Below, one piece after another: positions 9,456-36,847 of a stretch of 42,671 nucleotides of DNA. The stretch is taken from positions 1-42,671 of the forward strand of contig JAQMWT010000118.1 of assembly GCA_029834535.1 (NCBI GenBank), in the 5' to 3' direction. Position numbers and translations under genes: made by a program. Source of the stretch: Chrysophaeum taylorii. Its lineage: Eukaryota; Sar; Pelagophyceae; Pelagomonadales; Pelagomonadaceae. Numbering within the stretch: the first letter of the stretch is position 1; each line of letters opens with the position of its first letter. Below the pieces are notes generated by a model. That model had not been told where the DNA came from, made no database searches, and saw only the letters and a list, made by a program, of their open reading frames with translations.

Positions 9456-9599
9456 CGAGGCTCGCGTAGCGTCCCTGGCTCGAGCGCGTCGTCCCGTTTG
9501 CCGGGCGAAGGCTCCATCGCCGTCGCACGCGACAACCTTACTTCAAAAAAATTTTTTTACGACTACAACCTTACCCTGATCGCTGACTGCGGGCGATGG

Positions 9600-9725
9600 A
9601 GGACGGTGCCTCACGAATCCTGAGCCTTGCGAGGGCCATCCGCCCTCCCGGCGTAGGTTGGCACCTATTCGCCTCCCGGGCGTGCCGGTTGGCAGCCGGA
9701 ACGTTCGCTGTGGGACGGTGCATGG
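9600..9725 (+). repeat. SINE-like head segment in array unit (example from unit 4)
   Basis: The segment starts at GGACGGTGCCTCACG and runs through GCCTCCCGGGCGTGCCGG and CAGCCGGAACG. It aligns over about 125 bp with the minus-strand head of the SINE-like insertion at 32722-33085, which carries GGACGGCGCCTAGC, GCCTCCCGGGCTGGCCGG and CACCCGGAAAG. Other copies are at about 2135, 6754, 11931, 16361 and 18878. Units 2 and 6 lack it. The tails after the shared head are unrelated, as in SINE families that share a head but differ in body. Confidence 0.6.
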
Positions 9726-9904
9726 CCGGGGTGGCGAAGACGGAAGGTTAGGGTTTTCTTCCTCGAAATACTCGCGATCTACGACTACGCCAGCATACAG
9801 CCAGCATAGAAATCGACCATCCGACAGGGTTTTCTTTTCAACGAATATACGGTTTTTCTTCTTCGAAATACTCTCGCCTAAGGGTTTTCTCTCTCCTTCG
9901 AAAT

Positions 9905-10223: not shown

Positions 10224-12551
10224 CTAGTAAGGCCAAGTCGGGTTTTTTTCGGCCTTTTTCTCGGGGGGCAAGCCCCCCGAACCCCCCGGGAATTGGGGGC
10301 TCTGCCCCCCAAACCCCCCGCCGGGGACACCCCCGGACCCCCCACCGCCTCGACGGCCGCCGCGTCTCGGGAGCCGACCAAAAACGAAGTCGCGACGCCG
10401 TGGAAATTCTGTCTTTTCGGTTCTTGAAGATTTCTGCGCATTTTTTCGTTCTTGGGTTAGGGTGGGTACCCTTTTCCTTCCTTTCCGTTGCGCGAAGCGT
10501 TCTGGGGGTTAGCGTTATGCCTGTTTATTTTCGGCTTTGCGTTTTTTGCGGATGGACTATGAGATGGACTATGAGATGGCGGATGGCCGCTTTGTTTAAT
10601 GGAGTATTTCATTATAGACAATAGGCGCCGGGGTGGCGGCGGGCGTAGTGAGAAGGAGGGCGTCGCGCATAATCCATAGATAGCGGACGCGCCGTCGCGG
10701 TCGACGGTCCAGAGGTTCTCGCGGCGAGGACGGCCGCAGCGGGAAGAGCGAGGCGTGGCCGCGGAAGCGGGCTTCGCCGTAGACGCGAGCGGGGAGGTCT
10801 TCGTCTCCGTGGGCGATGGCCGATGGCCACGGGCGGTCGTGGTGGACGCGCGCGGGCGCGCGGCCGGTCGTCGGCGCGCGGGCGCGCGGCGCGCTCGTAG
10901 AGTCCGAGGCCGCGGTCGCGAAGGCGGTGGCCGCTCGCAGCGGCGACGAAGACGCCGGCACGCATCGTCGCAGCGGCGACGAAGACGCCGGCACGCATCG
11001 TATCGAAGCGCTGGCGGACGCGTCGACCTCGACGCGCCGTCGAGTTTTTATTTCGGGTTGGTCGACTGGACGTCAACCCGCGGTCGCGACGGCGGCGACG
11101 AAGACGCCGACACGCATCGTATCGGCGCGCTGCCCGGCGGCGCACCGGGGTGCGCGGGCGCGCGGCCGGGTCGTCGGCGCGCGCGCGCGCGGCACGCTCG
11201 TCGCGGTCGTCGCCGCGTTTTTCGTGGTCTTCGATCCGTAGCGGGGGAGAGTCCGAGGCCGCGGTCGCGACGGCGGTGGCCGCTGGCAGCGGCGACGAAG
11301 ACGCCGGCACGCATCGTATCGAAGCGCCGGGCCCGGCGGCGCGGAGCGCCGCCCGTCGAGCGAGCCGCCGAGTTTTTTTTCGGGTTTGTCGACTGGACGT
11401 CAACCCGCGGGCGAGTCCGATACCGCGGTCGCGACGTCGATGGCCGCTCGCAGCGGCGACGAAGCCGGCGGCACGCATCGTATCGAAGGTGAAACGATGT
11501 TCGATCCACCGAGTCGACGGTCGAGTCTCGTTCGCTCTCGCGCGTTCTCGAGGACGGCCCGTCGGAAGATCGAGTCGTGGCCGTGGAAGCGGGCTTTGAC
11601 CGCAGACGCGAGCGCGGCAAGCCGTTGTCGATTTCGGTGGCCGGTCGCAGCGGCGACGAAGACGCCGGCTGCATCGCGCGCGTACCGAAGAGTTCGCGCG
11701 AAAAAAGGCGAAATCGCGTCGCATTTTTGCGCGCGCCAGAACCCCGAAAGAACCCCGAACGTAAAACGCCGGCATGCGATGCCGGCGTCGAGGCTCGCGT
11801 AGCGTCCCTGGCTCGAGCGCGTCGTCCCGTTTGCCGGGCGAAGGCTCCATCGCCGTCGCACGCGACAACCTTACTTCAAAAAATTTTTTACGACTACAAC
11901 CTTACCCTGATCGCTGACTGCGGGCGATGGAGGACGGTGCCTCACGAATCCTGAGCCTTGCGAGGGCCATCCGCCCTCCCGGCGTAGGTTGGCACCTATT
12001 CGCCTCCCGGGCGTGCCGGTTGGCAGCCGGAACGTTCGCTGTGGGACGGTGCATGGCCGGGGGGCGAAGACGGAAGGTTAGGGTTTTCTTCCTCGAAATA
12101 CTCGCGATCTACGACTACGCCAGCATACAGCCAGCATAGAAATCGACCATCCGACAGGGTTTTCTTTTCAACGAATACTACGGGTTTCCTTCTTCGAAAT
12201 ACTCACGACTAAGGGTTTTCTCCTTCGAAATACTAACAGGATCCGAACTCGAGACGTACGTACAGCAACTACCCCAGATTCTCGCTCAAACTTCTACGGT
12301 CTCTCCGATACTACAAGGCTCGCCGTAGATAGCAAGAACAAAACATTTTATAAACATTAATGCTTTTGGCGCATACATTAGCAAAAGAACAGAAAGTAGG
12401 CCTCGAGTGAAGCGTTTTGAAATGAATCGGCTTTACAAAACGCAGATTTTGTGTGGCCGTTTCGAGCATACATAGGGAAAAGAACAGAAAGTAGAGTTCC
12501 GTTAATGTGTCGGGACACACTGACACACGTTTCCCAATTAATTATTGTGGA
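10224..12551 (+). repeat. Array unit 5 (type B)
   Basis: The hairpin cluster is at 10262-10345, the core at about 10615-11765, the palindrome at 11766-11788 and the SINE-like segment at about 11931-12056. The core shares a GC-extreme segment (about 11146-11240) with unit 8 (about 18100-18190). It shares the next segment, through TCGATCCGTAGCGGGGGA, with unit 4. The units are therefore mosaics. Confidence 0.9.
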
Positions 12552-14425: not shown

Positions 14426-16985
14426 CTAGTAAGGCCAAGTCGGGTTTTTTTCGGCCTTTTTCTCGGGGGGCAAGCCCCCCGAACCCCCCGGGAATTGGGG
14501 GGCTCTGCCCCCCAAACCCCCCGCCGGGGGACACCCCCGGACCCCCCACCGCCTCGACGGCCGCCGCGTCTCGGGAGCCGACCAAAAACGAAGTCGCGAC
14601 GCCGTGGAAATTCTGTCTTTTCGGTTCTTGAAGATTTCTGCGCATTTTTTCGTTCTTGGGTTAGGGTGGGTACCCTTTTCCTTCCTTTCCGTTGCGCGAA
14701 GCGTTCTGGGGGTTAGCGTTATGCCTGTTTATTTTCGGCTTTGCGTTTTTTGCGGATGGACTATGAGATGGACTATGAGATGGCGGATGGCCGCTTTAAT
14801 TAATGGAGTATTTCATTATAGACAATAGGCGCCGGGGTGGCGGCGGGCGTAGTGAGAAGGAGGGCGTCGCGCATAATCCATAGATAGCGGACGCGCCGTC
14901 GCGGTCGACGGTCCAGAGGTTCTCGCGGCGAGGACGGCCGCAGCGGGAAGAGCGAGGCGTGGCCGCGGAAGCGGGCTTCGCCGTAGACGCGAGCGGGGAG
15001 GTCTTCGTCTCCGTGGGCGATGGCCGATGGCCACGGGCGGTCGTGGTGGACGCGCGCGGGCGCGCGGCCGGTCGTCGGCGCGGGCGCGCACGGCGCGCTC
15101 GTCGCCGCGTTGTTCCTGGTCTTGGATCCGTAGGCGTTCCAGCAGTAGGACGCGAGGCTTGCGATGGCCAGAGCGCGGCCAGTCCCAGGACGTGGCGCGA
15201 CCACCGTCGACAAAAGCGAAATCGATGTCGCAGACGCGTCGAGGTCGACGACGCGTCGACGAAGGCCGCGACTTTACGGCGAGCCGTTGTCGCCGGCGGG
15301 GAGTCCGAGGCCGCGGTCGCGACGGCGGTGGCCGCTCGCAGCGGCGACGAAGACGCCGGCACGCATCGTATCGAAGCGCTGGCAGACGCGTCGAGCGCCG
15401 GCGCGCCGCGCCGCGCCGCGGAGTTTTTATTCGGGTTGGTCGACTGGACACCGCGGGCGAGTCCGAGTCCGCGGGCGAGTCCGAGTCCGAGTCCGCGACG
15501 GCGGTGGCCGCTCGGCGGTGGCCGCTCGGCGGTGGCCGCTCGCAGCGGCGACGAAGACGCCGGCACGCATCGTATCGAAGCGCTGGCGCACGCGTCGAGC
15601 TCGACGCGCCGCGGTGTTTTTATTTCGGGTTGGTCGACTGGACGTCAACCCGCGGGAGAGTCCGAGGCCGCGGTCGCGACGGCGGTGGCCGCTCGCAGCG
15701 GCGACGAAGACGCCGGCACGCATCGTATCGAAGCGCTGGCGCACGCGTCGGCGCGGAGCGCCGCCCGTCGAGCGAGCCGCCGAGTTTTTCGGGTTTGTCG
15801 ACTGGACGTCAACCCGCGGGCGAGTCCGAGACCGCGGTCGCGACGTCGGTGGCCGCTCGCAGCGGCGACGAAGCCGGCGGCACGCATCGTATCGAAGGTG
15901 AAACGATGTTCGATCCACCGAGTCGACGGTCGAGTCTCGTTCGACGGCTCGTCGGAAGATCGAGTCGTAGCCGTGGAAGCGGGCTTTGACCGCAGACGCG
16001 AGCGCGGCAAGCCGTTCTCGATTTCGGTGGCCGGTCGCAGCGGCGACGTAGACGCCGGCACGCATCGCGCGCGTGTGCCGAAGAGTTCGCGCGGAATAAA
16101 GGCGAAATCGCGTCGCATTTTTGCGCGCGCCAGAACCCCGAAAGAACCCCGAACGTAAAACGCCGGCATGCGATGCCGGCGTCGAGGCTCGCGTAGCGTC
16201 CGTGGCTCGAGCGCGTCGTCCCGTTTGCCGGGCGAAGGCTCCATCGCCGTCGCACGCGTCAACCTTACTTCAAAAGATCGGTCGAAAGGGTTTTCTTCTT
16301 CGAAATACTCTCGACTTTTACGACTACAACCTTACCCTGATCGCTGACTGCGCGCGATGGAGGACGGTGCCTCACGAATCCTGAGCCTTGCGAGGGCATC
16401 CCCGCCCTCCCGGCGTAGGTTGGCACCTATTCGCCTCCCGGGCGTGCCGGTTGGCAGCCGGAACGTTCGCTGTGGGACGGGGTATGGTCTTCTTAGCAAA
16501 TAGTACGGGTTTTCTTCTTCGAAATACTCTCGATTTTTACGACCACCAGCGTCCAATTTACTACTACGGGAATCGAACTCGATACCAGGGACCTATGCGC
16601 ACTACGTATCCGAAAGTCGTCTTCACCCACGCTCGCCAGGCTACTACTCTCAGCATTACAAATCGACCACCAGGATCCGAACTCGAGACGTACGTACAGC
16701 AACCACCCAGATTCTCGTTCAAACTTCTACGGTCTCTCCGATACTACAGGGCTCGCCGTAGGTAGCAAGAACAAAACATTTTATAAATATTATTGCTTTT
16801 GGCTCATACATTTAGCAAAGAACAGAAAGTAGGCCGCGGGTTGAAGTTTTGACTTTACAATTGACTTTACAAAACGCAGATTTTGACGGCCCGTTTCGAG
16901 CATACATGCTGGTTTGCACAGAAAGTAGAGTTCCGGTAGAGTGCTCTGACACACAGACACACGTTTCCCAATTAATTATTGTGGA
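14426..16985 (+). repeat. Array unit 7 (type B, with extra tRNA-like segment)
   Basis: The hairpin cluster is at 14463-14550. The core, about 14815-16160, includes a 15-bp repeat (GGCGGTGGCCGCTCG, three copies) near 15500-15545. The palindrome is at 16160-16182 and the SINE-like segment at about 16361-16483. Copies of GGGTTTTCTTCTTCGAAATA flank the SINE-like segment, before it at about 16288 and after it at about 16506. An extra block with a tRNA-like motif follows at about 16553-16670, not seen in the other units. Confidence 0.9.
16553..16670 (-). repeat. tRNA-like insertion unique to unit 7
   Basis: This block interrupts unit 7 just before the common GGATCCGAACTCGAGACG motif. On the minus strand it contains GGTATCGAGTTCGATTCCCG, a good B box with a T-loop TTCGATT. 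A possible A-box-like TAGCCTGGCGAG lies about 65-70 bp upstream. T-stem pairing is incomplete and the A-B distance is long, so this is more likely a tRNA-derived SINE fragment than a functional tRNA. Confidence 0.35.
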
Positions 16986-19498
16986 CTAGTAAGGCCAAGT
17001 CGGGTTTTTTTCGGCCTTTTTCTCGGGGGGCAAGCCCCCCGAACCCCCCGGGAATTGGGGGGCTCTGCCCCCCAAACCCCCGCCGGGGGACACCCCCGGA
17101 CCCCCCACCGCCTCGACGCCCGCCGCGTCTCGGGAGCCGACCAAAAACGAAGTCGCGACGCCGTGGAAATTCTGTCTTTTCGGTTCTTGAAGATTTCTGC
17201 GCATTTTTTCGTTCTTGGGTTAGGGTGGGTACCCTTTTCCTTCCTTTCCGTTGCGCGAAGCGTTCTGGGGGTTAGCGTTATGCCTGATTATTTTCGGCTT
17301 TGCGTTTTTTGCGGATGGACTATGAGATGGACTATGAGATGGCGGATGGCCGCTTTAATTAATGGAGTATTTCATTATAGACAATAGGCGCCGGGGTGGC
17401 GGCGGGCGTAGTGAGAAGGAGGGCGTCGCGCATAATCCATAGATAGCGGACGCGCCGTCGCGGTCGACGGTCCAGAGGTTCTCGCGGCGAGGACGGCCGC
17501 AGCGGGAAGAGCGAGGCGTGGCCGCGGAAGCGGGCTTCGCCGTAGACGCGAGCGGAGAGGTCTTCGTCTCCGTGGGCGATGGCCGATGGCCACGGGCGGT
17601 CGTGGTGGACGCGCGCGGGCGCGCGGCCGGTCGTCGGCGCGCGGGCGCGCGGCGCGCTCGTAGAGTCCGAGGCCGCGGTCGCGAAGGCGGTGGCCGCTCG
17701 CAGCGGCGATGAAGACGCCGGCACGCATCGTATCGAAGCGGCGACGAACGCCGGCACGCATCGTATCGAAGCGCTGGCAGACGCGTCGAGCGCCGGCGCG
17801 CCGCGCCGCGGACTTTTTATTCGGCTTGGTCGACTGGACACCGCGGGCGAGTCCGAGTCCGCGGGCGAGTCCGAGTCCGCGGGCGAGTCCGAGTCCGAGT
17901 CCGCGACGGCGGTGGCCGCTCGCAGCGGCGACGAAGACGCCGGCACGCATCGTATCGAAGCGCTGGCGGACGCGTCGACCTCGACGCGCCGTCGAGTTTT
18001 TATTTCGGGTTGGTCGACTGGACGTCAACCCGCGGTCGCGACGGCGGCGACGAAGACGCCGACACGCATCGTATCGGTGCGCTGCCCGGCGGCGCACCGG
18101 GGTGCGCGGGCGCGCGGCCGGGTCGTCGGCGCGCGCGCGCGCGGCACGCTCGTCGCGGTCGTCGCCGCGTTTTTCGTGGTCTTCGATCCGCAGCGGGGGC
18201 GAGTCCGAGGCCGCGGTCGCGACGGCGGTGGCCGCTGGCAGCGGCGACGAAGACGCCGGCACGCATCGTATCGAAGCGCCGGGCCCGGCGGCGCGGAGCG
18301 CCGCCCGTCGAGCGAGCCGCCGAGTTTTTTTTCGGGTTTGTCGACTGGACGTCAACCCGCGGGCGAGTCCGATACCGCGGTCGCGACGTCGATGGCCGCT
18401 CGCAGCGGCGACGAAGCCGGCGGCACGCATCGTATCGAAGGTGAAACGACACCGAGTCGACGGTCGAGTCTCGTTCGCTCTCGCGCGTTCTCGAGGACGG
18501 CCCGTCGGAAGATCGAGTCGTAGCCGTGGAAGCGGGCTTTGACCGCAGACGCGAGCGCGGCAAGCCGTTCTCGATTTCGGTGGCCGGTCGCAGCGGCGAC
18601 GAAGACGCCGGGCAGCATCGCGCGCGTACCGAAGAGTTCGCGCGCAAAAAAGGCGAAATCGCGTCGCATTTTTGCGCGCGCCAGAACCCCGAAAGAACCC
18701 CGAACGTAAAACGCCGGCATGCGATGCCGGCGTCGAGGCTCGCGTAGCGTCCCTGGCTCGAGCGCGTCGTCCCGTTTGCCGGGCGAAGGCTCCATCGCCG
18801 TCGCACGCGACAACCTTACTTCAAAAAAATTTTTTTACGACTACAACCTTACCCTGATCGCTGACTGCGGGCGATGGAGGACGGTGCCTCACGAATCCTG
18901 AGCCTTGCGAGGCCCATCCGCCCTCCCGGCGTAGGTTGGCACCTATTCGCCTCCCGGGCGTGCCGGTTGGCAGCCGGAACGTTCGCTGTGGGACGGTGCA
19001 TGGCCGGGGGGCGAAGACGGAAGGTTAGGGTTTTCTTCCTCGAAATACTCGCGATCTACGACTACGCCAGCATACAGCCAGCATAGAAATCGACCATCCG
19101 ACAGGGTTTTCTTTTCAACGAATACTACGGGTTTCCTTCTTCGAAATACTCACGACTAAGGGTTTTCTCCTTCGAAATACTAACAGGATCCGAACTCGAG
19201 ACGTACGTACAGCAACTACCCCAGATTCTCGCTCAAACTTCTACGGTCTCTCCGATACTCCAAGGGTCGCCGTAGATAGCAAGAACAAAACATTTTATAA
19301 ACATTAATGCTTTTGGCGCATACATTACCAAAAGAACAGAAAGTAGGCCTCGAGTGAAGCGTTTTGAAATGAATCGGCTTCACAAAACGCAGATTTTGTG
19401 TGGCCGTTTCGCACATACATAGGGAAAAGAACAGAAAGTAGAGTTCCGTTCATGTGTCGGGACACACACACTCACGTTTCCCAATTAATTATTGTGGA
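16986..19498 (+). repeat. Array unit 8 (type B, last unit)
   Basis: The hairpin cluster is at 17023-17108, the core at about 17375-18715, an 18-bp minisatellite at about 17845-17900, the palindrome at about 18713-18735 and the SINE-like segment at about 18878-19003. It is very similar to unit 5 in core and tail. The unit ends with CCAATTAATTATTGTGGA as the others do. It is then followed by TT and a short tandem repeat instead of the CTAGTAAGG start of a new unit. Confidence 0.9.
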
Positions 19499-24599: not shown

Positions 24600-25600
24600 A
24601 GGTCAACTTGACGACGGACAAAAAAAAACGCTAATCCTTGGGGGTTTTTGGCCCCGGCGCAGGACTCCCGCGTTCCTTATCAGACCCTAGTTAGGGGGGA
24701 TTAAGGGACCATAAATTTGGTTGATGGGCGCGGTGGCTATATGTGTCATATGAACTATCGTATTTGTTATGTGCGAAATTTTAGTACGCATAGTTGTTAT
24801 ACGCGTCAATAAATGCACGTGAAAGGTTTTATGTGTCACGTTTTTTAGTAAATTGTATCATGTGTCACTAGTTGTATTTTAATGTTGAAAGTGTCACGTC
24901 CTATTTGTAGTAATTTTTATATGTGTCATTTTTGCAGAGAAATCAGCTGACTCCTACCCTTATTGCGTCCGTTGAGAGCGCGATCTCTCCCTTACCCTTC
25001 TTCTTCCCTTTTCACCAAATCAATAGTCCTCTGATTTGTGCTCACGCTCATCATCATGGTCTAGCGCGTCCCGTAGGTGTGTAGGATTACATGGTAACCT
25101 AGGTGTTGTCCTATGTGTCGTCTGTCGTGTGCTGAGGCTAGGGGGACTAACCTGCTCCCTGAACTTAACCTGTCATAATTGGACTGTTACCGCGCCAGTC
25201 TAGCCTCGCCATGCAACACGCTTGTTTACATATGCTTTACATGGGATGTACATAGCTAACGTTAAGACTGCGTAACCTTGGGTGCTTGTTTATATGTCAT
25301 CGTGTTGTCGTGAAAGTGTTAGTGTGTGTGTATTCTGTCTAACTGTACTGATTGCACACGCGTTATGGAATATTTTGGATATGTCCGCTCGGATACTCCA
25401 CGATGATGCACTAACCGCTCATTAGAGCACAACGTACCCACAACTGCCAGTCAGTGCTAACCTTCACACTGATTGGAATCGCAGTTTGCACAGTTGCTAT
25501 ATATGCACCTTCCATTGTTTAACTGATGAGTGTACATAGACACCGCTAGACAGAGCCCCCTAGAATGTCTAGAAGGAGTCAACTCTGATCTGACAGAACC
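24600..25600. other. Gene-free AT-rich interval
   Basis: There is no open frame of note and base composition shifts abruptly from GC-rich to AT-rich at about 24600. It holds a phased repeat at 24735-24935 and the probable 5' flank of the copia element. I could not find a matching pair of long terminal repeats, so the 5' LTR, if any, is unrecognised here. Confidence 0.6.
24735..24935 (+). repeat. Degenerate ~30-bp phased repeat with TATGTGTCA core
   Basis: ATGTGTCA or close variants occur at about 24741, 24769 (TTATGTGCG), 24800 (ATACGCGTC), 24831, 24860, 24890 and 24921, that is, every 27-32 bp. The spacers are T/A-rich and variable. Regular spacing near three helical turns could reflect protein binding sites or an old minisatellite. 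Confidence 0.6.
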
Positions 25601-25617
25601 CACAGGTTCACGTCACC

Positions 25618-27445
25618 GTTCTCATGGCAGAACGAGCAGCAAGAGTCGCACCCAAAGCAGTCACGGTGCTGACTTTCTCTAACCCGAGGCGCCCGTCGTT
25701 GATTTTCTCAATGAGTGGAATCGCTTCCAAAGCCAGAGTGGCGGAGTTTAATCTTGGTTCAGTTAAGATTTGCGTTCTGAATACCAGGTCTGGCATTTCA
25801 CTGGTGAAACGTTCCCACATCTTCAGGATCATGAAGTAGCACAGCTGGCCACTGTCTGCTATGATAACGAAGTGCGGGCAACCCGCCCCGAAATAAACGA
25901 TCGCTTTAAGCATGGTGAGCGCAATTTAAATCTCACCAATCCTCGCGAACTTGCCTTTGGCGGCAGAATCAACGCACCAGTGTCCATGTTTGCTTTAATA
26001 CATGCCGACTGGCATACTTAATAAAATACGTATGCAACCTTCTTATACACTTATCTCAATCACGAACGCACTAACAAACCCGCTCTCGCGGCCTGGCCAG
26101 CCATTACTAATGTGTATAATAAATACCACCTCCCTAACAAAACACGAGCTATCATGCTCATAGCATTTATTTTTTACGAGCCTGTGTCTTCTAACGATGT
26201 CTCGTATTTTAAACAGCAATTTGTCGCTGTTGTGTATAATCCTAACTGGTATGTTCATGTATTCATTGAATGTGTGCAGTCTTTCAGGCATCTCTCGTTC
26301 CAACTTAACCAGGAGGAGACTAATCTTCAATTCGATCATCCTATTGTATGTAGGAAATCGATGAAGAGGTCTACAGGCATTTCGCCAACAATACCAGCAA
26401 TAACAGGTACGATAGAGGTTGGGTCGAATGGTGCGTTATCTATGAGACACGCACATCTCCAAGAGCTCAACCCGGAGCTGACAAATTCTGTCATCCGTCC
26501 AACTCATCTTGTATTTTGGAGTTCGCGCTCGACCTCTACAGTTCTGTGTCTAACAATTCGGATGACAAAAGGCGCCTTGAGTCCCCTGTTTCCTGGATCC
26601 CCTATGTGGAAGGTCTGTCTACACACCAGAAACCAAAGTTCCTACTAACTCAGCTGCTGGATACCACCGACTCTGAACTTGACCATACTGCCCATGTGTT
26701 CGCTTCACTTACTGCCGCAACCTCTGGACCTTCTAAACCTCAGTTCAACGCCAGACGCTTCCAAAACACTAAGGACGCCAGCCAACCATTTTCTCGCAGT
26801 GATATGAGTTACTATCGCCCTTGTGACTCTTATGTTACCAAACCCCGTGGTCCTGGTCGATCCAATGACCGACTCGTGTACGCGCGCACACTCGATCGCT
26901 CTGCCCGATCTGATATGAAGTTACTGGACCGTACTAAGCACACCATGTATGCCCTTAAAGAACACTGCAGAGAACTCTCCAAACATGCTTTACAGAATGC
27001 GACTACGGCGCAACTGCAAGAAAATATTAATAAGCTGTTTGAGTCATTACTATATTCTGCAGCCAGCATCTCGACTACTGCTTCGGACGATAACACCGAA
27101 GTACTTCGCATTAATGATCAGCTTCAGTATGCCGAGGACATCATACGTGATGTTCACACACATCTGCTTTCGAACGAAACGTCGCTAAACTATGGGCCAG
27201 AACAAGCTACTGCGTCTGGACCCAACTCTACTCTTCCCGCTGGCTCTGATGGCCCTACTAACGCCATTTCTACTTGTACCGAGTCGGTAAACTTTACTGA
27301 AGCTGCCATTGCCCAGCTTTCTCCGGAGCAGCTAAATCAGCTATCATCTCATGTGACAGCAGCGATGTGCCGTCACAGTACTACTCAAGCTACGATACAA
27401 CCGTCTTTTAACTCAAATGACAACCGCTGGTCTATCGCCCCTTGA
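25618..27445 (+). pseudogene. gag: Gag-like region of the copia element
   Basis: The upstream part (25618-26500) survives as fragments in different frames. One contains SEYQVWHFTGETFPHLQ and ends LIHADWHT. The main open frame, 26516-27445 (309 codons), is polar and helical: LDTTDSELDHTAHVFASL, then a basic stretch (KPRGPGRSNDRLVYARTL), then TAQLQENINKLFESLLYSA. No CCHC zinc knuckle is visible. The S-L-N-Y motif at 27182-27193 lies about 85 codons before the end of this frame. Assignment as Gag rests on position before the protease and on composition. Confidence 0.55.
27176..27205 (+). other. Repeated S-L-N-Y junction motif 1 (Gag / protease side)
   Basis: The frame reads NETSLNYGPEQATA. It has the same core as the motifs at 30156 and 32351 and lies just before the polar linker that leads to the protease. 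A cleavage site is proposed because S-x-N-Y followed by a small residue resembles retroviral protease sites and because each copy sits at a domain boundary. Confidence 0.5.
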
Positions 27446-27613
27446 CCTTGAAAATGGTTTAGGTGTCGACAATGGAGAACCTACTCCCCCAGTCGCCCCT
27501 GTCAAATTCACGCAGGTAATTGCCATGTCCAAGCTGCTAAATCAGTCGAATTCGTATGCAGCTAGCATCCCTTCTACCAGTGTCCATAGTGAAAACGCCT
27601 GTATACGAGGGAA

Positions 27614-28036
27614 CGTAGCCTTCCCCTTCACTTTCTCTATCTGGATAGCTGTGCTCCAATCTCGCTAATGACAACGTTTGACTTTGCAATACCTAACCAC
27701 GTTGTACCAATCGATCCTAAGATCGCCCCTGTTGTTCAAACCGCCACAGGTCAACAGCAAGTTTCGCACTTAATGTTAACAAAGAATATTGTGACTCCCC
27801 TACCAGATCACCCAGGTATCGGTTACGTGAAAATTGATTACGCTCTCTTCCTCAAACCTGTGAAAGGACGCCATATTTTCATATTGTCTGCCCCAGAGTG
27901 GAACAAAGCCCAATTGACTGTTACGCTTAATAGCAGCGATCAACCAATTCTATCCCATCTTACCAGTCTTATAGACAAAGATGTCAAGGTCCCAATCCAC
28001 TTTGTGGATCATGACTTACCAGCGTTACCTTGCTGA
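27614..28036 (+). pseudogene. Retropepsin-like aspartic protease of the copia element
   Basis: The key sequence YLDSCAPISLM (aspartate codon 27644-27646) corresponds to the D-S/T-G-A active-site loop, with cysteine in place of glycine. Hydrophobic strands follow, including QVSHLMLTKN and RHIFILS. The frame ends at a TGA at 28034 but continues open in the same phase beyond it, to another TGA at about 28240. In the family this enzyme is a homodimer that cuts the polyprotein. The glycine substitution and the stops suggest this copy is dead. Confidence 0.6.
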
Positions 28037-28240
28037 CCTTATGCTCTTGCACGCGACAGAAACATGGAACTACGCTCATTGGCATTTCCGCTGAGAAGGT
28101 ACAATGAAAATCGTGACCTGTGTCACTACTACGCATACCTTCTCTCTAAACTACCTTCGCGTCCTTGGCTCCGCCCGTTACTACTGAACCTTCGCAAACG
28201 GAATGATTATGTACGTAACAACACAACGCCATTGGCCTGA

Positions 28241-29995
28241 CTACATACGCGACCAGTGTTCTTATCTGTCGAACATGGCAAGCCTCGCAAGCCATCTGTC
28301 ATATTACTCTGTTTTGGTTTATCAACCCCTGCGTTTCTGTCACAAGCCAATAATGACCTGGTCTTGAACATCAAAGTTATAATTGTTGTCGAGTCTGATG
28401 ATACTCTTGTACGCACGTTACGTATACGATTTCCAGCTGTGTTAATTTTCCAATCCCTTCCCTCATTTATCAATCACCTCCACTCTATTACTGAGGAGGA
28501 GATACGTGAACTGTATTGTGACATCATAGAAATCACACCCCCTTGCACTAGTCGTATCTTGTTGAAGAACACCAAAACTTCCGCCCTGGTCAGCCTACTT
28601 GACGATGCTCTATTTGATAGCATGCTTACCATCATCAAGTTGCTCAAGCCCCTCGTTCTTCTGGCGGAGATGACTCCCCCACATAAACAGATTCACCGTA
28701 ATCATATTTCCGTGGCCAATCTTATTCATGCCACCCTCAATTACACGGTTGATGTGGTCGACAAACTTCCCACATGCCTCTGTGGCGATTATCAATCGCG
28801 AGAGAGGTGGATTTTTGTTGCTCGTAGGTATAACATAGGGAACATTGACATGCTCTCTTGGCCCAATCAACACCGTAAACGGCTTCTGGACATTGCAGAC
28901 GATATCAACTCTATTCCCAAATCACCCTGGCTAGCGAAAGATCTTGCTAGAGACTGGATCCGCGTCTACCCTGGTCCTCCTTTGGTTCCCTCACCTAAAA
29001 TTCTTCCTCTATACTCGCGCACAGGCTCTGTTCAGTTAAGTGTGAGTGAACTTGAAACCTTAAATCTCTTGTTCCTCCGGCTTCATTCCCAACAAGCTCT
29101 CGAACAATCCACCCACGAATCGCACTCTGAACGCACTTATCATAATTGGGGCTTTAAGAGATGTTCCAATAAGCCGCTACCGGGATCATCTAATCCCATC
29201 CGCCTCGAGGCGTCCATCACTCTCTACAATGTGTTCGCTAGGCTCTCGCCTGACACACCCACTCCTGTGTCCTGTTATTTCGCGATTTTCGAAACTGACC
29301 AATCCGCACACAGGTTATTCCTTGCAAACTCTTCATCCAACTTCAACATCCACTTCACTAGTGGCCGACACTCCGAAGGTAGCCTCCTAGTTAAGAACAG
29401 GGTCCGCAAGTACAAGGATTCTATTGATCCATTTGGATCTACCTACACGTTCACTGCCTCCGATAACCCTGCCGACAAAACTATTCACTTGGACTCGTTC
29501 CAAGGCTACCTCTGGCTCGTTCAGGCTCACCCTCAGGCCGACACTGCTCGTGGCACCCTTCCTGTCATCCGCTGTCTACAAACTCAGTGTGACCTGGTTA
29601 TGCCGCACTGTGTCGCCTACGACCCAACTCGCGACCAACTTTCGTTTAAGGACAAGCACTTTGCCCTAGAAGATTGTCATCTGTCCCACAGTCGGTATCT
29701 TGGCTACTTGCGGGATAGCGATCGCAAACTTGGCTCCAAAATCCACTCGATGCTTGCCCCCTAGCCCACAATACGGGGATACGCCAACATTTTGCTACTC
29801 GACCCGCGCAATGGTAAACTTCGATATCCCACGCGCCCCGAGCTCTTTATATAGGAAATAACCACTCGCGCCCTCAAGAGTCCTTCTTGCTTTCGCCGAA
29901 TAAGGATTTTTGCTGTGGTCTTCTCAGCAATGCCTCGCCTGCTGGCACTTTTCACACGCTCTATACTCGTATCTGTCGCATAGCTATCGACATGA
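28241..29995 (+). pseudogene. C5-cytosine DNA methyltransferase-like domain inside the copia polyprotein
   Basis: Methyltransferase motifs appear in order, numbered from the ATG at 28256. A motif I-like SVILLCFGLS is at 14-23, and an acidic VESDD (cofactor ribose region) at 45-49. ITPPCTS at 93-99 carries the catalytic cysteine of motif IV (residue 97, codon 28544-28546). AEM at 137-139 stands where ENV is usual (motif VI). QSRERWIFV at 180-188 is motif VIII. A long region of about 310 residues follows, in the place of the target recognition domain. After a TAG at 29762 the same frame continues with LRYPTRPELF (motif IX-like, about 29819). LSNASPAGTF (motif X-like, about 29923) is one frame off. 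The family methylates cytosine C5 in DNA. The diverged motif I and the stops suggest this copy is inactive. It is fused between protease and integrase, an unusual position for a host-type enzyme. Confidence 0.75.
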
Positions 29996-30128
29996 AATCC
30001 CTCATGTAGGACCCTACCTTTCAGCGTGATACTGCCATCCTGAAGTAGACATATGCGTCGACCTTCCTCGCTCGTGAACTGTCCCTTTTAGTCACAGTTA
30101 TGATACCATTTCTCAGGCAGACGCATTC

Positions 30129-31190
30129 TTGAGCTATATCGCCAACCGAAGCTGGACCGAAATGTCGTTAAACTACCGCTCCTCAGGAAATGCACGTGAA
30201 GAAGCACTTGCCTCGTCAGTCTCAAATGACAATGAGCATGCGGACGTCGACTCCACCGATGACGGCAACGTTCCCTCCTTAGACCCGGGTACTAAGCTCA
30301 AATTCCTCGTTCGGAGGAAACGGCACATACCCGTTAAATCGATTCCTCGCAAATCCCTACCGCACGGCACTGTCGAATATCAGAACGCTAAAGAACGTGC
30401 CAACCGCTTCCATCGGGTTCACCATTGCCCTGACAGTGTAGCAGCCAAAGCCCCCGACGTACTTGCACGTCCTGGCTTCTCGGCATCAGACATCCCCTAA
30501 GGGATATCTGTATCGACTGCATCTGTCGTAACAAACGTCACCGCCATGATCATCATAATCCAACCAAGTCCAATTTTGAACAGACTCATCAACCCGGTGA
30601 AGTCTGGGCTTGTGACGGAGGGTACGTTACCTTCCTTCAGAATGGGGTGGTTTCACTCATATCATACTCGTTAAATAGCTGCGGTCGAAGTCCTTGCTGG
30701 CGTACTTTACGCGCACCACCAACGCAACTGAGTTCATGCAAGCTCTGGGCTTTCTGCACGTCTTCTGCAGAACCCAACTCAATGTCCGTCTGCGTACAGT
30801 CTACTCTGACGCTTTCCGTCCATACTTTAGCTTGCATGTGACAACCCCCTACCGTGTCGATAAAGGCATTAACCTTGTCGCTTTCCCACCTTGCCTACAC
30901 TCTTTCAATCACGACTTAGGACAGAGTAGAGGCTTCGTTGCCTCTGCCTCCTCAACTCGCCTTCGTAATCTTCTCAATGCACACTACCGTGGTGCTAAGA
31001 TTGTTGAGTCGGCTGTTCATTTCCCGTGGGCTGTAGTGCATACGATTCCGTCCTATAATATTTTGCCTTACGCTACACTTGAACGCATCCACAGCGCCAT
31101 CATTGGCCCTCCGCAGTTCCTTTACAATCAACTGAGCACACCTCAACATAATCTTCTCAAAATCTTGGTAGTGAATGCTTCCTTCTCTTG
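30129..31190 (+). pseudogene. Integrase of the copia element
   Basis: The zinc-binding HHCC module is clear: FHRVHHCPD at 30408-30434, then after a frame shift DICIDCICRNKRHRH with C-x2-C at 30509-30520. The catalytic core begins EVWACDGGYVTF with the first aspartate at codon 30613. The second is in TVYSDAF at codon 30808, about 65 residues later, as expected for copia. The third acidic residue is not certain. Open frames 30129-30500 and 30694-31584 carry the two halves. The S-L-N-Y motif just before the HHCC module (30162-30173) would release integrase from the methyltransferase. Confidence 0.75.
30156..30188 (+). other. Repeated S-L-N-Y junction motif 2 (methyltransferase / integrase)
   Basis: The frame reads WTEMSLNYRSSGNA. 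It lies about 160 bp after the motif X-like sequence of the methyltransferase and about 75 codons before the HHCC zinc module of integrase. The DNA core GTCGTTAAACTA is shared with motif 3. Confidence 0.5.
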
Positions 31191-32350
31191 GAACATCATG
31201 AACACCATAACTACGAACCGTCGCGCCGCAGATATCTTTGCTTATGCTGCGCCATCTCGCAAAACCGGCTTATCTCGCCACATGCGGATCATCAGGCCGA
31301 TGTCGTTCTCAACCCGGAGAACGGACAACTTCGCGTTTCCTCCAAGCTCACCTTCACGTACATGCTCCAACGTTCCACTCTCGATCCTGAACATGCTCCT
31401 CCACCTCATGCTCCGCTTGTTCCTTTCAACATTACGCCCAATCGATATGATGACCCCGATGATGCGTTGCAGAGGGGGAATCAAACTCAGAGGGGGCACA
31501 CCCCTACTCCTGCTCCTCCACCCGCTCACGCTCCGTCATCGTCTCAGCAGCAGCCTCCTGACACCTATCCCACAGCTTTTCTAGTTGTTGCCGACAAGAC
31601 TATCTCGCCACCGCCTATCCTACCGTCTTACAAGGACCTGTTTCCACAAGATAACCTTGAACTTGTCCCAGGTTCCCGGCGCCCCAACCAACGCAAAGCC
31701 TCATCCATGGCCTCTGTCACTGCTCGGCCTTTCAGGCTTCTACTGTTGGCGCCTACAAATCCGCTGATGGCAAACTCGCTGACTTTCGATGGGACCTCCA
31801 GCATCGTTTCCTTGATTTCAAATCGCCCACCCTCTCCACACTCAACACATCTTGTGGTCTCCACTGGACAGCTCTCTGCCCAGAGGGGGAACAGGCTTTG
31901 CTCGTGCAACACCTTCTGCCGTTGCGCACTGATCTTCTTTCTCGTCATCCACTGCTTGAGGGTGCATTCTCTCAAACCAAATGTGCAACCAGCTTGCCAG
32001 TGTCTACGCACCTTACTACGGATGGAACTCCCTTTTGCCATCTTCCATCTTCACTTACTGCCATGTTCACTGAACATGCCTCGGCTTTTGGTGTCTATCC
32101 GTTGCAATATGCTTACGCTTACCTATCACCCACTAGCTTTATCGATCCTAACGTCCATACTCCCTGGTCGTCATCTGAGTTTGGATCTACGTCTTCCTCA
32201 CTATCTGACCTGGGGGAGTATCTCCTCTTCTCTACCGAGTACATTACTCGGGTTCTCCAGGAGGCACCACTCCTCGTGATTCACCTAGAACCGGACTCTT
32301 CTACCCCTTCCGCATGTTCTACTCACGCTTATCCTGAAGTGCTGTACACT
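31191..32350 (+). pseudogene. Unassigned region between integrase and reverse transcriptase
   Basis: The first part (31191-31700) is a proline- and glutamine-rich linker such as PPPAHAPSSSQQQPPDTYP, typical after copia integrase. The second part, about 31780-32350, reads as a folded domain: FDWDLQHRFLDFKSPTLSTL, LLPLRTDLLSRHPLLEGAFS, FGSTSSSLSDLGEYLLF. Frames change at about 31900. I recognise no family, and it is longer than the usual integrase-RT linker. Confidence 0.45.
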
Positions 32351-32385
32351 GCTTCGACCGAAGAGTCGTTAAACTATGGCTCCCC
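32351..32385 (+). other. Repeated S-L-N-Y junction motif 3 (integrase region / reverse transcriptase)
   Basis: The frame reads TEESLNYGSPATVG. It lies some 85 codons before the KARLVLRGF start of the reverse transcriptase fingers. Confidence 0.5.
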
Positions 32386-32713
32386 AGCCACTGTAGGTCC
32401 GGACGAATACAAAGTCCAGGAAGCCGACATTGCTATCGATCAGTACAAGCGCAGGTGCCTACAATGGCTTACTCCTGAAGACCGACAAGCCTACATCAAG
32501 GCGATCGCAAAGAGTTACGCGACATCATCCGCTTTGGCTTCTTCAAGCTAGCTCTACCTGATGCCCTTACTCGTCCAATTTACAGTCGCCTGGTGCTCAA
32601 GATTAGGACCAACTCCGCCGGTGAATATGTCAATCACAAGGCTCGGTTAGTCTTGCGTGGCTTCTTAGACTCACTCGACGCCGATTTCTTTGGGGCGTTT
32701 AGTCCCATGGCAA

Positions 32714-32721
32714 CGATGACT
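32714..32721 (+). repeat. Target-site duplication of the SINE-like insertion, left
   Basis: CGATGACT is identical to 33086-33093. It falls in the ATMT codons of the reverse transcriptase. Confidence 0.75.
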
Positions 32722-33085
32722 AACTAACTAACTAACTTCAGACCTCTCCCGAGCATGGGAGCCAGGCCGAACCGGCAAGAGTCGGTGCGGAATCACAGAG
32801 GAAAATCACGCAGTTGGGGCAGGGCGACGGACGAGGACGGACTTGTTGATGGTGGACCGCCACTGCGCGCGGTCTTGTGCGGGGTCGTGCAAAAGCGTCG
32901 CAGGCCGCGGACGTGTTGGTCCACGAACAATCGACCTGTCCGTCGCGTTCTGCCCAACCGAGCGAACCCCACCCCAGCGCGGACTTTCCGGGTGCTAACC
33001 GGCCAGCCCGGGAGGCGAGCAGGCACCGTCTCACTCCGGGACGGCCGGGGCCGCCGCAGGGAGCAAGCGTGCTAGGCGCCGTCCT
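32722..33085 (-). mobile_element. SINE-like insertion in the copia reverse transcriptase
   Basis: This 364-bp insertion is flanked by the 8-bp direct repeat CGATGACT (32714-32721 and 33086-33093). On the minus strand it starts with GGACGGCGCCTAGCACGC and ends in a simple tail of AGTT repeats (32722-32736 on the plus strand as AACTAACTAAC). A short tandem tail plus a target duplication indicates target-primed retrotransposition. The first 125 bp or so match the SINE-like segment of the array units. There is no coding capacity. A GGTTAGCACCC stretch is a weak B-box candidate. Confidence 0.7.
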
Positions 33086-33093
33086 CGATGACT
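33086..33093 (+). repeat. Target-site duplication of the SINE-like insertion, right
   Basis: CGATGACT, after which the reverse transcriptase reading resumes as ATGACTGCTATACGT (MTAIR). Confidence 0.75.
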
Positions 33094-33110
33094 GCTATAC
33101 GTGTAATCTT

Positions 33111-33880
33111 CAGCGTTGGGAATTCACTGGGCTCACTTCACTAGGTTCACTGAATTTGGTCCACTTCACTTCACTTCACCGAAATTTTGTGTCCGAAATC
33201 CAGTGTTCACTTCATATTCGTTCACTTTGGCTGACGGCCTGACCTGACCCCGCCTAATGAGCGAAGTCGAGCCGCGCTACCTCGAGGTGGAGGATAATGT
33301 TAATTATGAGGAGGAAAACGCGGAACAGAAGGAGGAGCACAAGAAAAAGCCGATGTCGATGCTGACGTCGAACACGCCCGGCAAAACTAGATGATAAACC
33401 AGGGAAACGTCTTGCTCGGCGCGGACGATGCGGAGAAAGTTGCCCTAGTGCGCACGAAGAAGAATTTCATTGCGGCGGCCCGGATCAAGCATAGCGACCT
33501 CGCCGAGACCGAGTTCAAAAACGCCGGAAGTACTATCCCCGACGACTTGCAGAGGAAGGAAGACCAAGACGAAGATACTGAGGTCGTTCACATCGCCTAA
33601 AGTAAGAAGCACTGAACACCATCCACGGTGACTCCTCCTTCGCCCCGAAACGCGAATGAATCTAAGAGCTCTAGACCTAGGCAATAGCGGGCGGGGGGAA
33701 CGGAACCGACGGGGTGCGGTAGGGACCGGCTCTGGCGTTAACAAAAAAAATGTGGTGTTCACTTCACCAAGGTTCACGATAGCCACGTAGGGCGACGAGT
33801 TCACTTTAAATCACTTCACAAAAATTGCATGGCTGGTGAAGTGGTTCACGTTCACTCGCTGAAGTGAATTCCCAACGCTG
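33111..33880. mobile_element. Non-autonomous hAT-like DNA transposon in the copia reverse transcriptase
   Basis: The 770-bp element has perfect 18-bp terminal inverted repeats, CAGCGTTGGGAATTCACT (33111-33128) and its reverse complement (33863-33880). It is flanked by an 8-bp duplication, GTAATCTT (33103-33110) and GTTATCTT (33881-33888), with one mismatch. The CAGNG start, 8-bp target duplication and short inverted repeats are characteristic of hAT elements. Subterminal regions are rich in TTCACTTCAC repeats, the kind of motif hAT transposases bind. No full transposase is present; a residual acidic ORF lies inside. Confidence 0.85.
33391..33600 (+). CDS. Small acidic ORF within the hAT-like element
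   Basis: This frame of 69 codons ends in an acidic tail (QRKEDQDEDTEVVHIA). Just upstream, 33257-33390 is open in another phase and also acidic (YEEENAEQKEEHKKK). These may be leftovers of a transposase end or of captured sequence. No domain recognised, and translation is doubtful. Confidence 0.3.
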   Translation: MINQGNVLLGADDAEKVALVRTKKNFIAAARIKHSDLAETEFKNAGSTIPDDLQRKEDQDEDTEVVHIA

Positions 33881-34183
33881 GTTATCTTAGCCATCGCTGC
33901 TTACAAGAACCTACCCGTGTACCACAGCGACGTGCCCAACGCGTTCGTCCAGTCCGACATTGATGCGCACGTCTACATCCAGCTCCCTGGCGGCATCAAG
34001 TTGCTTGATCCGCAAGACGATAAGTATAACGGCCGCCGTTTACCCAACTTGCGCAAGTCCCTGTGCGGACTCAGGCAATCTCCTTCACTCTGGAACAAGG
34101 AGGTCGATAATTTTTTTTGAAATCCTGGCTACAAGCGACTCCATGCTGATTCATGTTTGTATGTACGTGTCACCACTCTCGCT

Positions 34184-34371
34184 CGCTTTCTCATTTGAAG
34201 CCTATCCGTGGACGAGATCGTCATAGTTAGGAAGCTCTGCGCAAGCACAGTAGAGAACAGTAAAAAATCACTGTGCCCGCTTTCTCATTTGAAGCCTATC
34301 CGTGGACGACATCGTCATAGTTAAGAAGCTCTGCGCAAGCACAGTAGAGAACAGTAAAAAATCACTGTGCC
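34184..34371 (+). repeat. 94-bp tandem duplication across the reverse transcriptase VDD motif
   Basis: Copy one is 34184-34277 and copy two is 34278-34371. They differ at two visible positions; one changes the catalytic-motif codon (VDE in the first, VDD in the second). Each copy ends with GAGAACAGTAAAAAATCACT, the first bases of the downstream repeat. The duplication therefore arose after that repeat had joined the copia sequence. Confidence 0.85.
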
Positions 34372-35597
34372 CCTGGTAGAGAGTGATGGCAGTGGTAGTG
34401 CCACCCTAATGCCCTGTCTCTAACGACACAAAGAGCGGGACGGTGTTCGACACAGCGGTTTTGTTGGTGATTGGGTGTGAGTGTGATAGGAGGGGGCGTA
34501 CTAACCCTAAATCGGATTTTCTATCTCTACGCCCTCGCAGATTGAACTCGGTGGTGAAATCTGGAACAAACAAAACAAATGTCAGGCCAAAGACAAACAG
34601 ACGTTGAGTTGTAAGGAGGCGTGGAATGAGAAGTGTGCGAAATGCACGAGAGAGATAGAGCAGAGCGGAGTAGCAGGGGAGTGTAAGTGAGAAATGAGAA
34701 AGAGCGCAAAGTGGAACGTGGAATAGGTTGAAAGGGGAAACTAAGTGAAAAGAAGAATACAAGAGGAGGCGAATAGTCGAAAAGGGAAAAAGCATCGATC
34801 GTAAAGAAGAGGAAACGTGGAAGAAGATGCTAGGTGGGCTAATGGTGAACTATGGCGAGTTCAGTACTAGAGATCATATCATCATCTTGTCCAGTGACTG
34901 ATGAAAGAAGGATGTAATGACAACATCGTGAAGAATAAGTGAGCGTACTAGTGTCATCGTCGAATACGAGAGTCGCATGCATTAAGTCGTGGGTGTTCCG
35001 TGACATAGGACGACGGTGCGTGCGGGTGGATAAATCCTAAGTGGCTGAGGGATCCTCGTAGTAGAACGGGTGGTCTAACTGATAACAATAGTAGGGACCG
35101 TGAGTCAGGCAGTCGTGAAGTGTACACAGTACAGCAGACCAATGATTGATCGAAAGGCGAATAGTGAGAGTGGCCATAGGAATGAGATTCTATTATGACT
35201 AAAGTTGAGCTAGTAAGGGTGCGACGATGTGACAGAGCGGCAGCGTTATCCCATGAAGAGATATGACCATTTATCCAAATCGGTTTCGACATGATAAGGT
35301 AATCGTCGTAGCGATAGCGAGTAAGGCGGGGCTGTTCCTGGAAGATGAGAGAACCAGAATTGCCTGTCACATACGTGTCGAAGCTGTCGTCCTGAGTGTG
35401 GCGTGGGACAGCTGAAGCTAAACTATGAGCGTCTAAAATAACATGCGGATAATCATCGTGTGATGTTGATATAGGGATAAAGTCGTCTGGGGGTGGCCAT
35501 AAATATGAAAACAACTATAAATTGGCTGTAGACTTGGAATTGTGGTCTGGTGGCGGTTGCCATTTGCTATCATCAAAAGATGATTGGACTGAGACTC
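34345..35597 (-). repeat. Unnamed dispersed repeat, copy 1
   Basis: It aligns with 35899-36847 in the same orientation, sharing GAGAACAGTAAAAA at the start, ACGCCCTCGCAGATTGAACT, AACCAGAATTGCCTGTCACA, GGCCATAAATATGAAAAC and AAAGATGATTGG at the end. It keeps two internal blocks of about 100-200 bp that copy 2 lacks. On the minus strand it holds ORFs 34406-34795 and 34954-35514, with no recognised domain. It terminates the copia element, so it probably inserted there. No terminal repeats or target duplication were found. Confidence 0.7.
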
Positions 35598-35898
35598 CAG
35601 AGCGCTACACTATTATGTGTGCGACACTGGCATTCCTTACTCCTTTTAGTTAGTTAGTTCACACTTCTTATACTTGGGGGTTTTCTCTACGTAATACTAC
35701 AGCGTTCCCTCTCCTCCCTTACCCTTCCGCAATTATTTATTTCATGACTATGAAGAACTAGTCTGAAGCTCTCTTCCAACACGGAGTAGGCCTCCAGGTG
35801 CGTACCGTTAGGTACGGGGTTCTCTGCTTAATCAGCAGAAGCTCCGTTTCTCGTTGTCAGTGTAAAAGCTTCTATGAGATCTAATGTCCCTAAGGAGT
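35598..35898. other. Spacer between the two repeat copies
   Basis: There is no gene. A short AGTT run (TTAGTTAGTTAGTT, about 35647) recalls the tail of the SINE-like element, but the sequence before it does not match. An inverted repeat CGTACC/GGTACG lies at about 35802-35817. Confidence 0.5.
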
Positions 35899-36847
35899 TA
35901 GAGAACAGTAAAAATCACTGTGCCTCTGGTAGAGAATGGTGGCAGTGGTAATGCTGCCTTTCGTCCTGTCTTCTAACGACACAAAGAGCAGTACGGTGTA
36001 CGACACAGCGATTTTGGGGTTGTAGTGTGAGTGTGAGGTTAGGGGGGGGGGTTCCTAACCCTAAATGGAATTTTCTATCTCTACGCCCTCGCAGATTGAA
36101 CTCGGTGATGAGCGAAATCTGGGACAAACAAAACAAATGTCTGGCCAAGGACAAATGGATGTCGAGTCGTGAGGAGGCGTTGAAGGAAAGGGTGCGAAGT
36201 GCATGAAAGAGATAGAGGAAAACGAAACGCAGGTAGGTGTGTCTGAGAAAGGAGAAAGAGCGTGAAGTCGAGTGTATAATCGGTTGATATGGGAAGCAAA
36301 AGAAAGAGGGTATTGCAAGAAGAGGTGGATGATCAAAGAAAGGAAAAAGCATCGGCCGTGAGTAAGAAGAAGAGTGGAGGAAGATGCTAGGTAGGCTAAC
36401 GATGAAGTATGGCGAATGTTGTGCGAGAGACCAGATCATCATCTTGCCCAGTGGCTAATGAGATAGGGGACGGTGCGTGCCGGTGGATAAATCCGAAATG
36501 GCTGGGGGAGTATCTGAGTGGAGCGGGTGGTCTAACGAATAATAACATGAGGGATCATGGGTCCGGAGGGAGTAAGGCGGTGCTGTTTCTGGAAGATGAT
36601 AGAACCAGAATTGCCTGTCACATACGTGTCAAAGCTGTCGTCCTGAGTGTAGCGTGGGACAGCTGAAGTTAGGCTATGAGCGTGTAAAATAATATGCGGA
36701 TAATCGGAGTGCGATGGCGATATCGTTGTAAAGTTGTCTGGGGTTGGCCATAAATATGAAAACTATAAATTTGCTGTAGGTTTGGGTTCGTAGTCTCGTG
36801 TAAGTCGCCAGTGGCTATCATCGAAAGATGATTGGGCGGAGACTGAG
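35899..36847 (-). repeat. Unnamed dispersed repeat, copy 2
   Basis: It is homologous to copy 1 with many point differences and two internal deletions. Minus-strand frames are open for 175 codons (35915-36442). They include the FNLRGRRDRK peptide also seen in copy 1, but the indels between copies are not multiples of three throughout, which argues against a conserved protein. Confidence 0.7.

Follow-up and report, generated by a model that had tools for sequence, protein, structure and literature searches.

A decayed copia retrotransposon of Chrysophaeum taylorii carrying a C5-cytosine methyltransferase-like domain between its protease-like and integrase regions

We analysed a stretch of 42,671 nucleotides (the window), which is the whole of contig C118 in a 70.8-Mb genome of 697 contigs. 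We observed that a decayed copia retrotransposon spans about 24933-34228 on the plus strand, as judged by homology to the copies on contigs C42 and C127, and that the first base of the element coincides in all three copies. Its features are collected in Table 1. With the gag frame of the C127 copy as query in tblastn, residues 10-202 aligned to 25779-26357 and residues 197-829 to 26336-28234, the latter continuing through the protease. The protease-like stretch gave no Pfam match at E≤1, and its name comes from the DSCA motif and its position only. Around the insertion in the RT region, DNA homology ended at 32720 and resumed at 33888. A search for an LTR pair within the window found none.

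Table 1. Features of the copia element in the window (positions of the window; MT, methyltransferase)
Feature	Position	Strand	Basis
5' LTR, diverged, right end approximate	24933-25245	+	begins TGCA; aligned to 5' LTR of C127 copy
gag region, frames shifted	25779-27592	+	tblastn with gag frame of C127 copy (L047)
SLNY site 1, gag end; candidate protease site	27182-27193	+	
Aspartic-protease-like stretch, DSCA at 27644-27655	27593-28036	+	open frame; DSCA motif and position
In-frame TGA before MT, next codon CTA	28238-28240	+	same TGA codon in 25 of 30 loci
Uninterrupted part of MT domain (motifs I, II, IV, VI and VIII)	28241-29764	+	stop-free 507-residue frame; profile matches
Motif I-like VILLCFGLSTPAFLS	about 28298-28342	+	counted from residue numbers
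Motif II-like VVESD	about 28385-28399	+	counted from residue numbers
Motif IV EITPPCT	28529-28549	+	counted from residue numbers
Motif VI LLAEMTPPH	28658-28684	+	counted from residue numbers
Motif VIII CGDYQSRERW	28781-28810	+	exact, from pattern search
IX-like LRYPTRPEL (29819-29845) and X-like LSNASPAG (29923-29946), two frames	29819-29946	+	
SLNY site 2, MT/integrase junction	30165-30176	+	
Integrase region	30494-31167	+	tblastn of C42 pol frame, residues 753-977
Region before and at start of RT	31730-32721	+	tblastn of C42 pol frame, residues 1163-1486
SLNY site 3, integrase/RT junction	32366-32377	+	
Insertion splitting RT	32722-33880	.	gap between pol residues 1486 and 1490
RT continued; homology ends at 34228	33881-34228	+	tblastn of pol residues 1490-1605, 75% identity

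Other repeats were also seen in the window. One of them, dispersed and about 180 nt long, occurs on the minus strand at 2114-2291, 6723-6902, 9569-9748, 11900-12078, 16330-16487 and 18847-19025, and is 84-93% like a sequence that immediately precedes the C127 element. Direct repeats are present at 34181-36844, namely two tandem units of 94 nt and a block repeated at spacings of about 1250-1560 nt.

The preliminary description had read a series of C5-methyltransferase motifs, I to X, in the correct order between a protease-like sequence and a copia integrase. The placement was borne out, both in the window and in other copies. As for the series, motifs I, IV, VI and VIII were found in one open frame, while the IX-like and X-like pieces lie beyond its stop (29762-29764), LRYPTRPEL in the same frame and LSNASPAG in another. 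In other copies of the two related families that we call A and C, the equivalent pieces (LRYPTRPEL or IRHYSTREL, and SNALP or ANAIP) sit within one frame. The stop and the frame change before these pieces thus indicate that the window copy is broken; it is also truncated.

We further compared the domain with profile libraries. The only Pfam match of the window MT at E≤1 was DNA_methylase (PF00145; E 5.6e-4), the profile suggested earlier, and its 19.9 bits stayed below the curated cut-off of 22. PHROG_116, annotated as DNA methyltransferase, matched residues 43-214 with E 4.7e-6; the same stretch of that profile was matched by four of four other family A loci (E 0.0034-0.031) and, in a separate test, not by the single locus tried (L018). 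NCBIfam gave nothing relevant for the window MT. At E≤1, PF00145 matched two of eight family A members and one of six family C members (E 0.19), and PHROG_116 matched three of the six family C members (E 0.15-0.38). All five members of a third, divergent family (B) matched PF00145, the best with E 5.1e-12 and 38.6 bits, over the cut-off, and the NCBIfam dcm model matched family B at E 8.7e-9, under its cut-off. Against solved structures at E≤1, the family B profile found only three cytosine-specific methyltransferases (E 0.013-0.047). The family A and A+C profiles found no methyltransferase there; the A1 and A5 profiles returned unrelated proteins only, and A2 had no match at E≤1. A single-sequence structure model of the domain had a pLDDT of 30.6, too low to use. 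Taken with the motifs, these matches confirmed, at the level of sequence likeness, that the open frame in the window carries a C5-methyltransferase-like domain inside a copia element.

The window MT had at least 87 matches in the genome (itself included), the others being 56-71% identical to it. A search with the motif-VIII pattern CGDYQxRERW, allowing up to two mismatches, gave 518 sites (262 + 256) and none with the reversed control; these sites cover the MT type of families A and C. Family C (L054) was 46-49% identical to the window MT and had 131 scored genome matches. Family B had 120 matches at 114 distinct places, and its MT sits at the same place, between protease and integrase, in another copia lineage. 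These counts may include haplotypes, because some contigs look duplicated: C10/C297 and C25/C521 showed matches at nearly equal coordinates and are probably duplicate or haplotype contigs.

An RVT_2 search of the genome scored 150 matches out of 1670 candidates. We assessed the 38 matches on contigs C1-C131, dropping two at contig ends, and 28 of the remaining 36 were preceded, at a distance of 2.5-5.5 kb and in the same orientation, by an MT; none was listed for the other eight, one of which, on C131, falls past the end of the list of MT places. The motif YGL(K/R)QS occurred 333 times in the genome (control 2), and YGL(K/R)QA once (control 0). We considered from this count whether the genome has no other copia; it is not shown to lack MT-free copia, because the unrelated copia protein P0002 also has QS and because of the eight RVT_2 matches above.

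The anatomy was read from the copies on C42 and C127. In the C42 copy, a single frame of 1691 residues contains the MT, an rve-like stretch (residues 784-866), SH3_retrovirus and RVT_2 (residues 1431-1651), and is preceded by gag and by the DSCA stretch that we read as protease, for which no Pfam family gave confirmation. Of the two profiles proposed for checking the backbone, RVT_2 was found with E 7.7e-42 downstream of the integrase-like stretch, which is the copia arrangement, while rve reached E 0.0076, below its cut-off (as was SH3_retrovirus, E 5.6e-4). No LTR pair was found between the C42 element ends that were examined. The C127 copy (C127:108155-121989, 13.8 kb) has LTRs of 313 bp with nine differences within the pair and TGCA at start and end (TG...CA ends). 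CTGAG stands on both flanks as a candidate target duplication, which could be fortuitous, because the flank itself is repetitive. As a further observation, in the family A copies L064 and L065 (C127) and L061 (C42), about 2 kb more follow the RNase H and a TGA, with frames like the gag region upstream of the MT in the family C copy L055.

Directly behind the 5' LTR of the C127 copy is GGTTATGGGCCCAG, a candidate tRNA primer site whose complementarity to an initiator-Met-like arm of the genome extends over 13 nt. Priming with half an initiator tRNA is known from copia elements. Sequences resembling initiator tRNA-Met in its 3' half, ACCA included, stand at two loci (L066 on C130 and L067 on C142) and at six more exact places. 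Neither of these two loci was called as a tRNA by ARAGORN, and the sequences are perhaps tRNA retrocopies.

When we examined the junction upstream of the MT, we observed an in-frame TGA directly before the domain in 25 of the 30 family A loci (the exceptions, in that register, being L030, L032, L035, L040 and L042). The earlier view of the MT as fused into a copia polyprotein is corrected by this, as the stop separates the protease from the MT in most loci. The codon after the TGA was CTA (13 loci), CTG (2), ATG (8) or ATA (2); L018-L046 thus show two kinds, CTA/CTG in 15 loci and ATG/ATA in 10. UGA followed by CUA is a leaky stop context, and the presence of both kinds in one family would allow read-through to be compared with re-initiation.

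A second recurrent feature was the sequence SLNY, which stands at the end of gag, at the MT/integrase junction and at the integrase/RT junction in the window and in the copies on C42, C127 and C9. The repeat is about 22 nt long, codes for TxxSLNY with like codons (TCG YTA AAC), and was also seen in L047, L048 and L050. Since SQNY/PIV is a protease site of HIV, it served as the model for reading these sites; the repeats are possible protease sites or a DNA or RNA signal.

We propose that the window element is a decayed copy of a large Ty1/copia family with a C5-cytosine MT between protease and integrase, and we give this account, its mechanism included, an even chance of being right. Its parts differ in strength. 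It is highly probable that these are copia elements carrying a real relative of the C5-methyltransferases, and the enzyme is probably active in some copies; that the element's own cDNA is its main substrate is a suggestion by analogy, which we put slightly short of even. In the proposed mechanism, gag-protease would mostly be made alone, and some ribosomes would pass the UGA to give MT-integrase-RT-RNase H; in part of the copies, they might instead restart at the AUG behind the UGA. The MT would then be released by the protease, for which the repeated SLNY sites are possible cleavage points. Since the MT lies inside pol, packing together with RT is suggested, as was argued in the available text of PMC5890265. 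The packed MT would methylate the double-stranded cDNA of the element before integration, which could shield it from a defence that targets unmethylated DNA or set the state of the new copy, and the host DNMT5 may keep the marks. A wider picture is doubtful, with clearly less than an even chance: new cytosine methylation would come mainly or solely from the copia MTs, the host's only detected DNA enzyme of its own being the maintenance-type DNMT5 (the element writes and the host keeps); the MT would have belonged to the lineage from before the divergence of families A, B and C; and a copy deprived of it would not spread.

A different possibility is that the MT has lost its enzymatic function and persists because it binds DNA or supports the fold of the polyprotein. 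We estimated the constraint on the domain from family A loci, which are the best matches to the window rather than a random sample and are not all independent. Cys102, Glu143, Gln185 and Arg189 were kept in 30 of 30 loci (window included) and Arg187 in 29. Motif IV reads PPC in all 30 family A loci (SPC in C, LPC in B), the motif VI Glu stands in AEM instead of ENV (ENV or ENA in B; one family C member, L058, has Gly at this position), and of the motif VIII QxRxR only the first Arg varies. The preliminary description would have been contradicted by copies lacking these motifs; instead, the motif residues recur in the 30 family A loci and in family C. With the window excluded, the 18 stop-free copies (153 pairs) gave dN/dS values of 0.18 over the whole domain, 0.106 for residues 15-240 and 0.262 for residues 241-507, with the lowest values (0.046-0.090) across residues 61-180, which contain motifs IV and VI; RT gave 0.116 (8 loci, 28 pairs). 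Close MT pairs had higher values (0.37 at dS <0.05), as is expected of dead copies. These results show that purifying selection acts on the MT domain. An inactive domain would agree with the diverged motif I of families A and C (CxGxS in family A, in place of the standard FxGxG), with LPC for PPC in family B, and with the replacement of Gly26 by Ala in two of the 18 stop-free copies and of Cys24 in single copies; we nevertheless consider it unlikely, since the catalytic residues are unchanged and the constraint is strongest around motifs IV and VI.

We also looked for a footprint of methylation. No sign of deamination was found: over 159 close pairs, transitions at CpG were 1.2 times those at other C sites, and no context stood out. 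The CpG observed/expected ratio was 0.92 in the element vs 1.48 in positions 1-24000 of the window, a difference that could have other causes.

The MT might also act on RNA, such as the element transcript or the primer tRNA, as DNMT2 does on tRNA. The complementarity of the primer site to the initiator-Met-like arm would fit this, and the available text of PMC5890265 raises RNA methylation as a possibility for a LINE-borne MT. The A+C profile, however, gives the host DNMT2 -1.6 bits (in a test of low power), and we regard action on RNA as quite unlikely.

The enzymes of the host bear on a further possibility, that the MT, whether by accident or because the element profits, methylates host DNA generally rather than the element's own cDNA. 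Scoring 123 of 474 candidates, we obtained 57 PF00145 matches in the genome. Of these, 55 belong to family B (48 assigned by place, L005 by reading and six by tblastn), and the other two are a DNMT2 and a DNMT5. A divergent host methyltransferase could be missed in this search, because families A and C are themselves absent from the 57. The DNMT5-like gene is on contig C621 (7r76, E 3e-143) and the DNMT2-like gene on C634 (1g55, E 3.9e-39); a light-harvesting-like frame, with VCPI-6 as best PDB match, adjoins the latter. This frame, the DNMT5 and a copia match in Aureoumbra lagunensis (below) fit a photosynthetic ochrophyte, perhaps a pelagophyte, as host. With hundreds of MT modules in the genome and DNMT5 as the sole other DNA methyltransferase among the scored matches, an effect on host DNA is conceivable, but the position in pol, with the packing that it suggests, speaks against it as the main role, and we hold it to be distinctly unlikely. 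The two host genes are C5-methyltransferases of the same genome as families A, B and C, but had no measurable closeness to any of them in a weak test. By eye, motif I of families A and C (CSGxxxP) resembles CSGTEAP of the host DNMT5. An origin of the MT from DNMT5 or DNMT2 found no support in the profiles (the A+C score against DNMT2 is given above; none was reported for DNMT5), a test of little power, because the Pfam-clear B profile misses both host genes too.

That families A and C are not C5-methyltransferases, the motif order being a chance likeness of a polyprotein spacer, is very improbable. The Pfam match of family A is below threshold, and its comparison with family B is weak: hhalign of A or A+C against B gave P 0.16, and two segments 0.034 and 0.0026; with the B profile in HMMER, two unrelated window frames scored 13.4 and 9.3 bits vs 8.2 for the best A sequence. 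In a test of motifs IX-X, 3 and 8 of 2000 shuffles exceeded the best score between A/C and B. Against chance stand the PHROG_116 match of the window MT, the recurrence of the motifs, in unchanged order, in families that share about half of their residues, and a Pfam-clear C5-methyltransferase at the same place in family B. The A/C and B domains may have a single origin: their common place between protease and integrase speaks for it, but the HMMER scores do not set the match apart from unrelated frames or shuffled sequences. The only observation in favour of a chimeric assembly, or of a lone host gene next to a transposon, is the likely duplication of contigs C10/C297 and C25/C521; the protease-MT-integrase order, repeated in many copies across many contigs, practically refutes both.

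The RT sequences were placed in a tree of 14 proteins (P0007 and P0008 left out, family B as one row). Families A, C and B together with P0001 were separated from five other copia proteins at 100/99, and A, C and P0001 were grouped at 94/93; constraining A+B+C without P0001 came near rejection (p-AU 0.054). P0001 is a copia-like transcript of Aureoumbra lagunensis (Pelagophyceae) from the MMETSP0892 transcriptome. It was the closest relative found among the eight matches of the C42 pol frame in the protein database (E 4.1e-200, 39% identity over 33% of the query). A1 and A4 gave no matches in that database, where length limits excluded whole polyproteins.

Elements of this kind are hardly described for copia, but are known in other retroelements. 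Published retrotransposons with DNMTs had been invoked from the start, and they do exist; in the available text of PMC5890265 their backbones are LINE, DIRS and Gypsy, and Symbiodinium copia is stated to lack a DNMT. The element described here is of none of these backbones, having the copia-type RVT_2 and domain order. One sentence in the part of PMC12344493 seen, without coordinates, names retrotransposon DNMT3s in "LTR Copia and DIRS", citing the 2018 paper; this mention may be a slip or may be based on supplementary data. Searches of the open-licence literature listed no copia element whose DNMT is described as lying between protease and integrase. The finding extends to copia the range of retroelements with a cytosine methyltransferase; the 70.8-Mb genome has hundreds of MT modules, and besides the element's own enzymes the PF00145 search of the scored candidates gave only DNMT5 and DNMT2. 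The copia MTs may bear on where new methylation comes from in lineages that rely on DNMT5.

Among the known systems, the nearest within copia is the Aureoumbra lagunensis P0001, which is of the same RT lineage as families A and C and whose predicted protein starts downstream of the MT position. For the others, we rely on the available sections of PMC5890265. SymbioDIRS-Dnmt3 and SymbioLINE-Dnmt of Symbiodinium are, like the present elements, retrotransposon-coded C5-methyltransferases in hundreds of copies, and the host likewise has DNMT2 and DNMT5. SymbioDIRS also carries its MT within the pol polyprotein; this MT is reported to perform de novo CG methylation and was proposed to methylate cDNA before integration, and the SymbioLINE MT that was tested is reported not to have methylated DNA in yeast. 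The two differ from the present elements in their DIRS and LINE backbones, the DIRS MT being of the DNMT3 type. KnitGypsy-Dnmt3 of Klebsormidium nitens shares with the copia elements the LTR type, an MT inside Pol and purifying selection, but it is a Gypsy element, its MT is of the DNMT3 type, and it is present in fewer copies.
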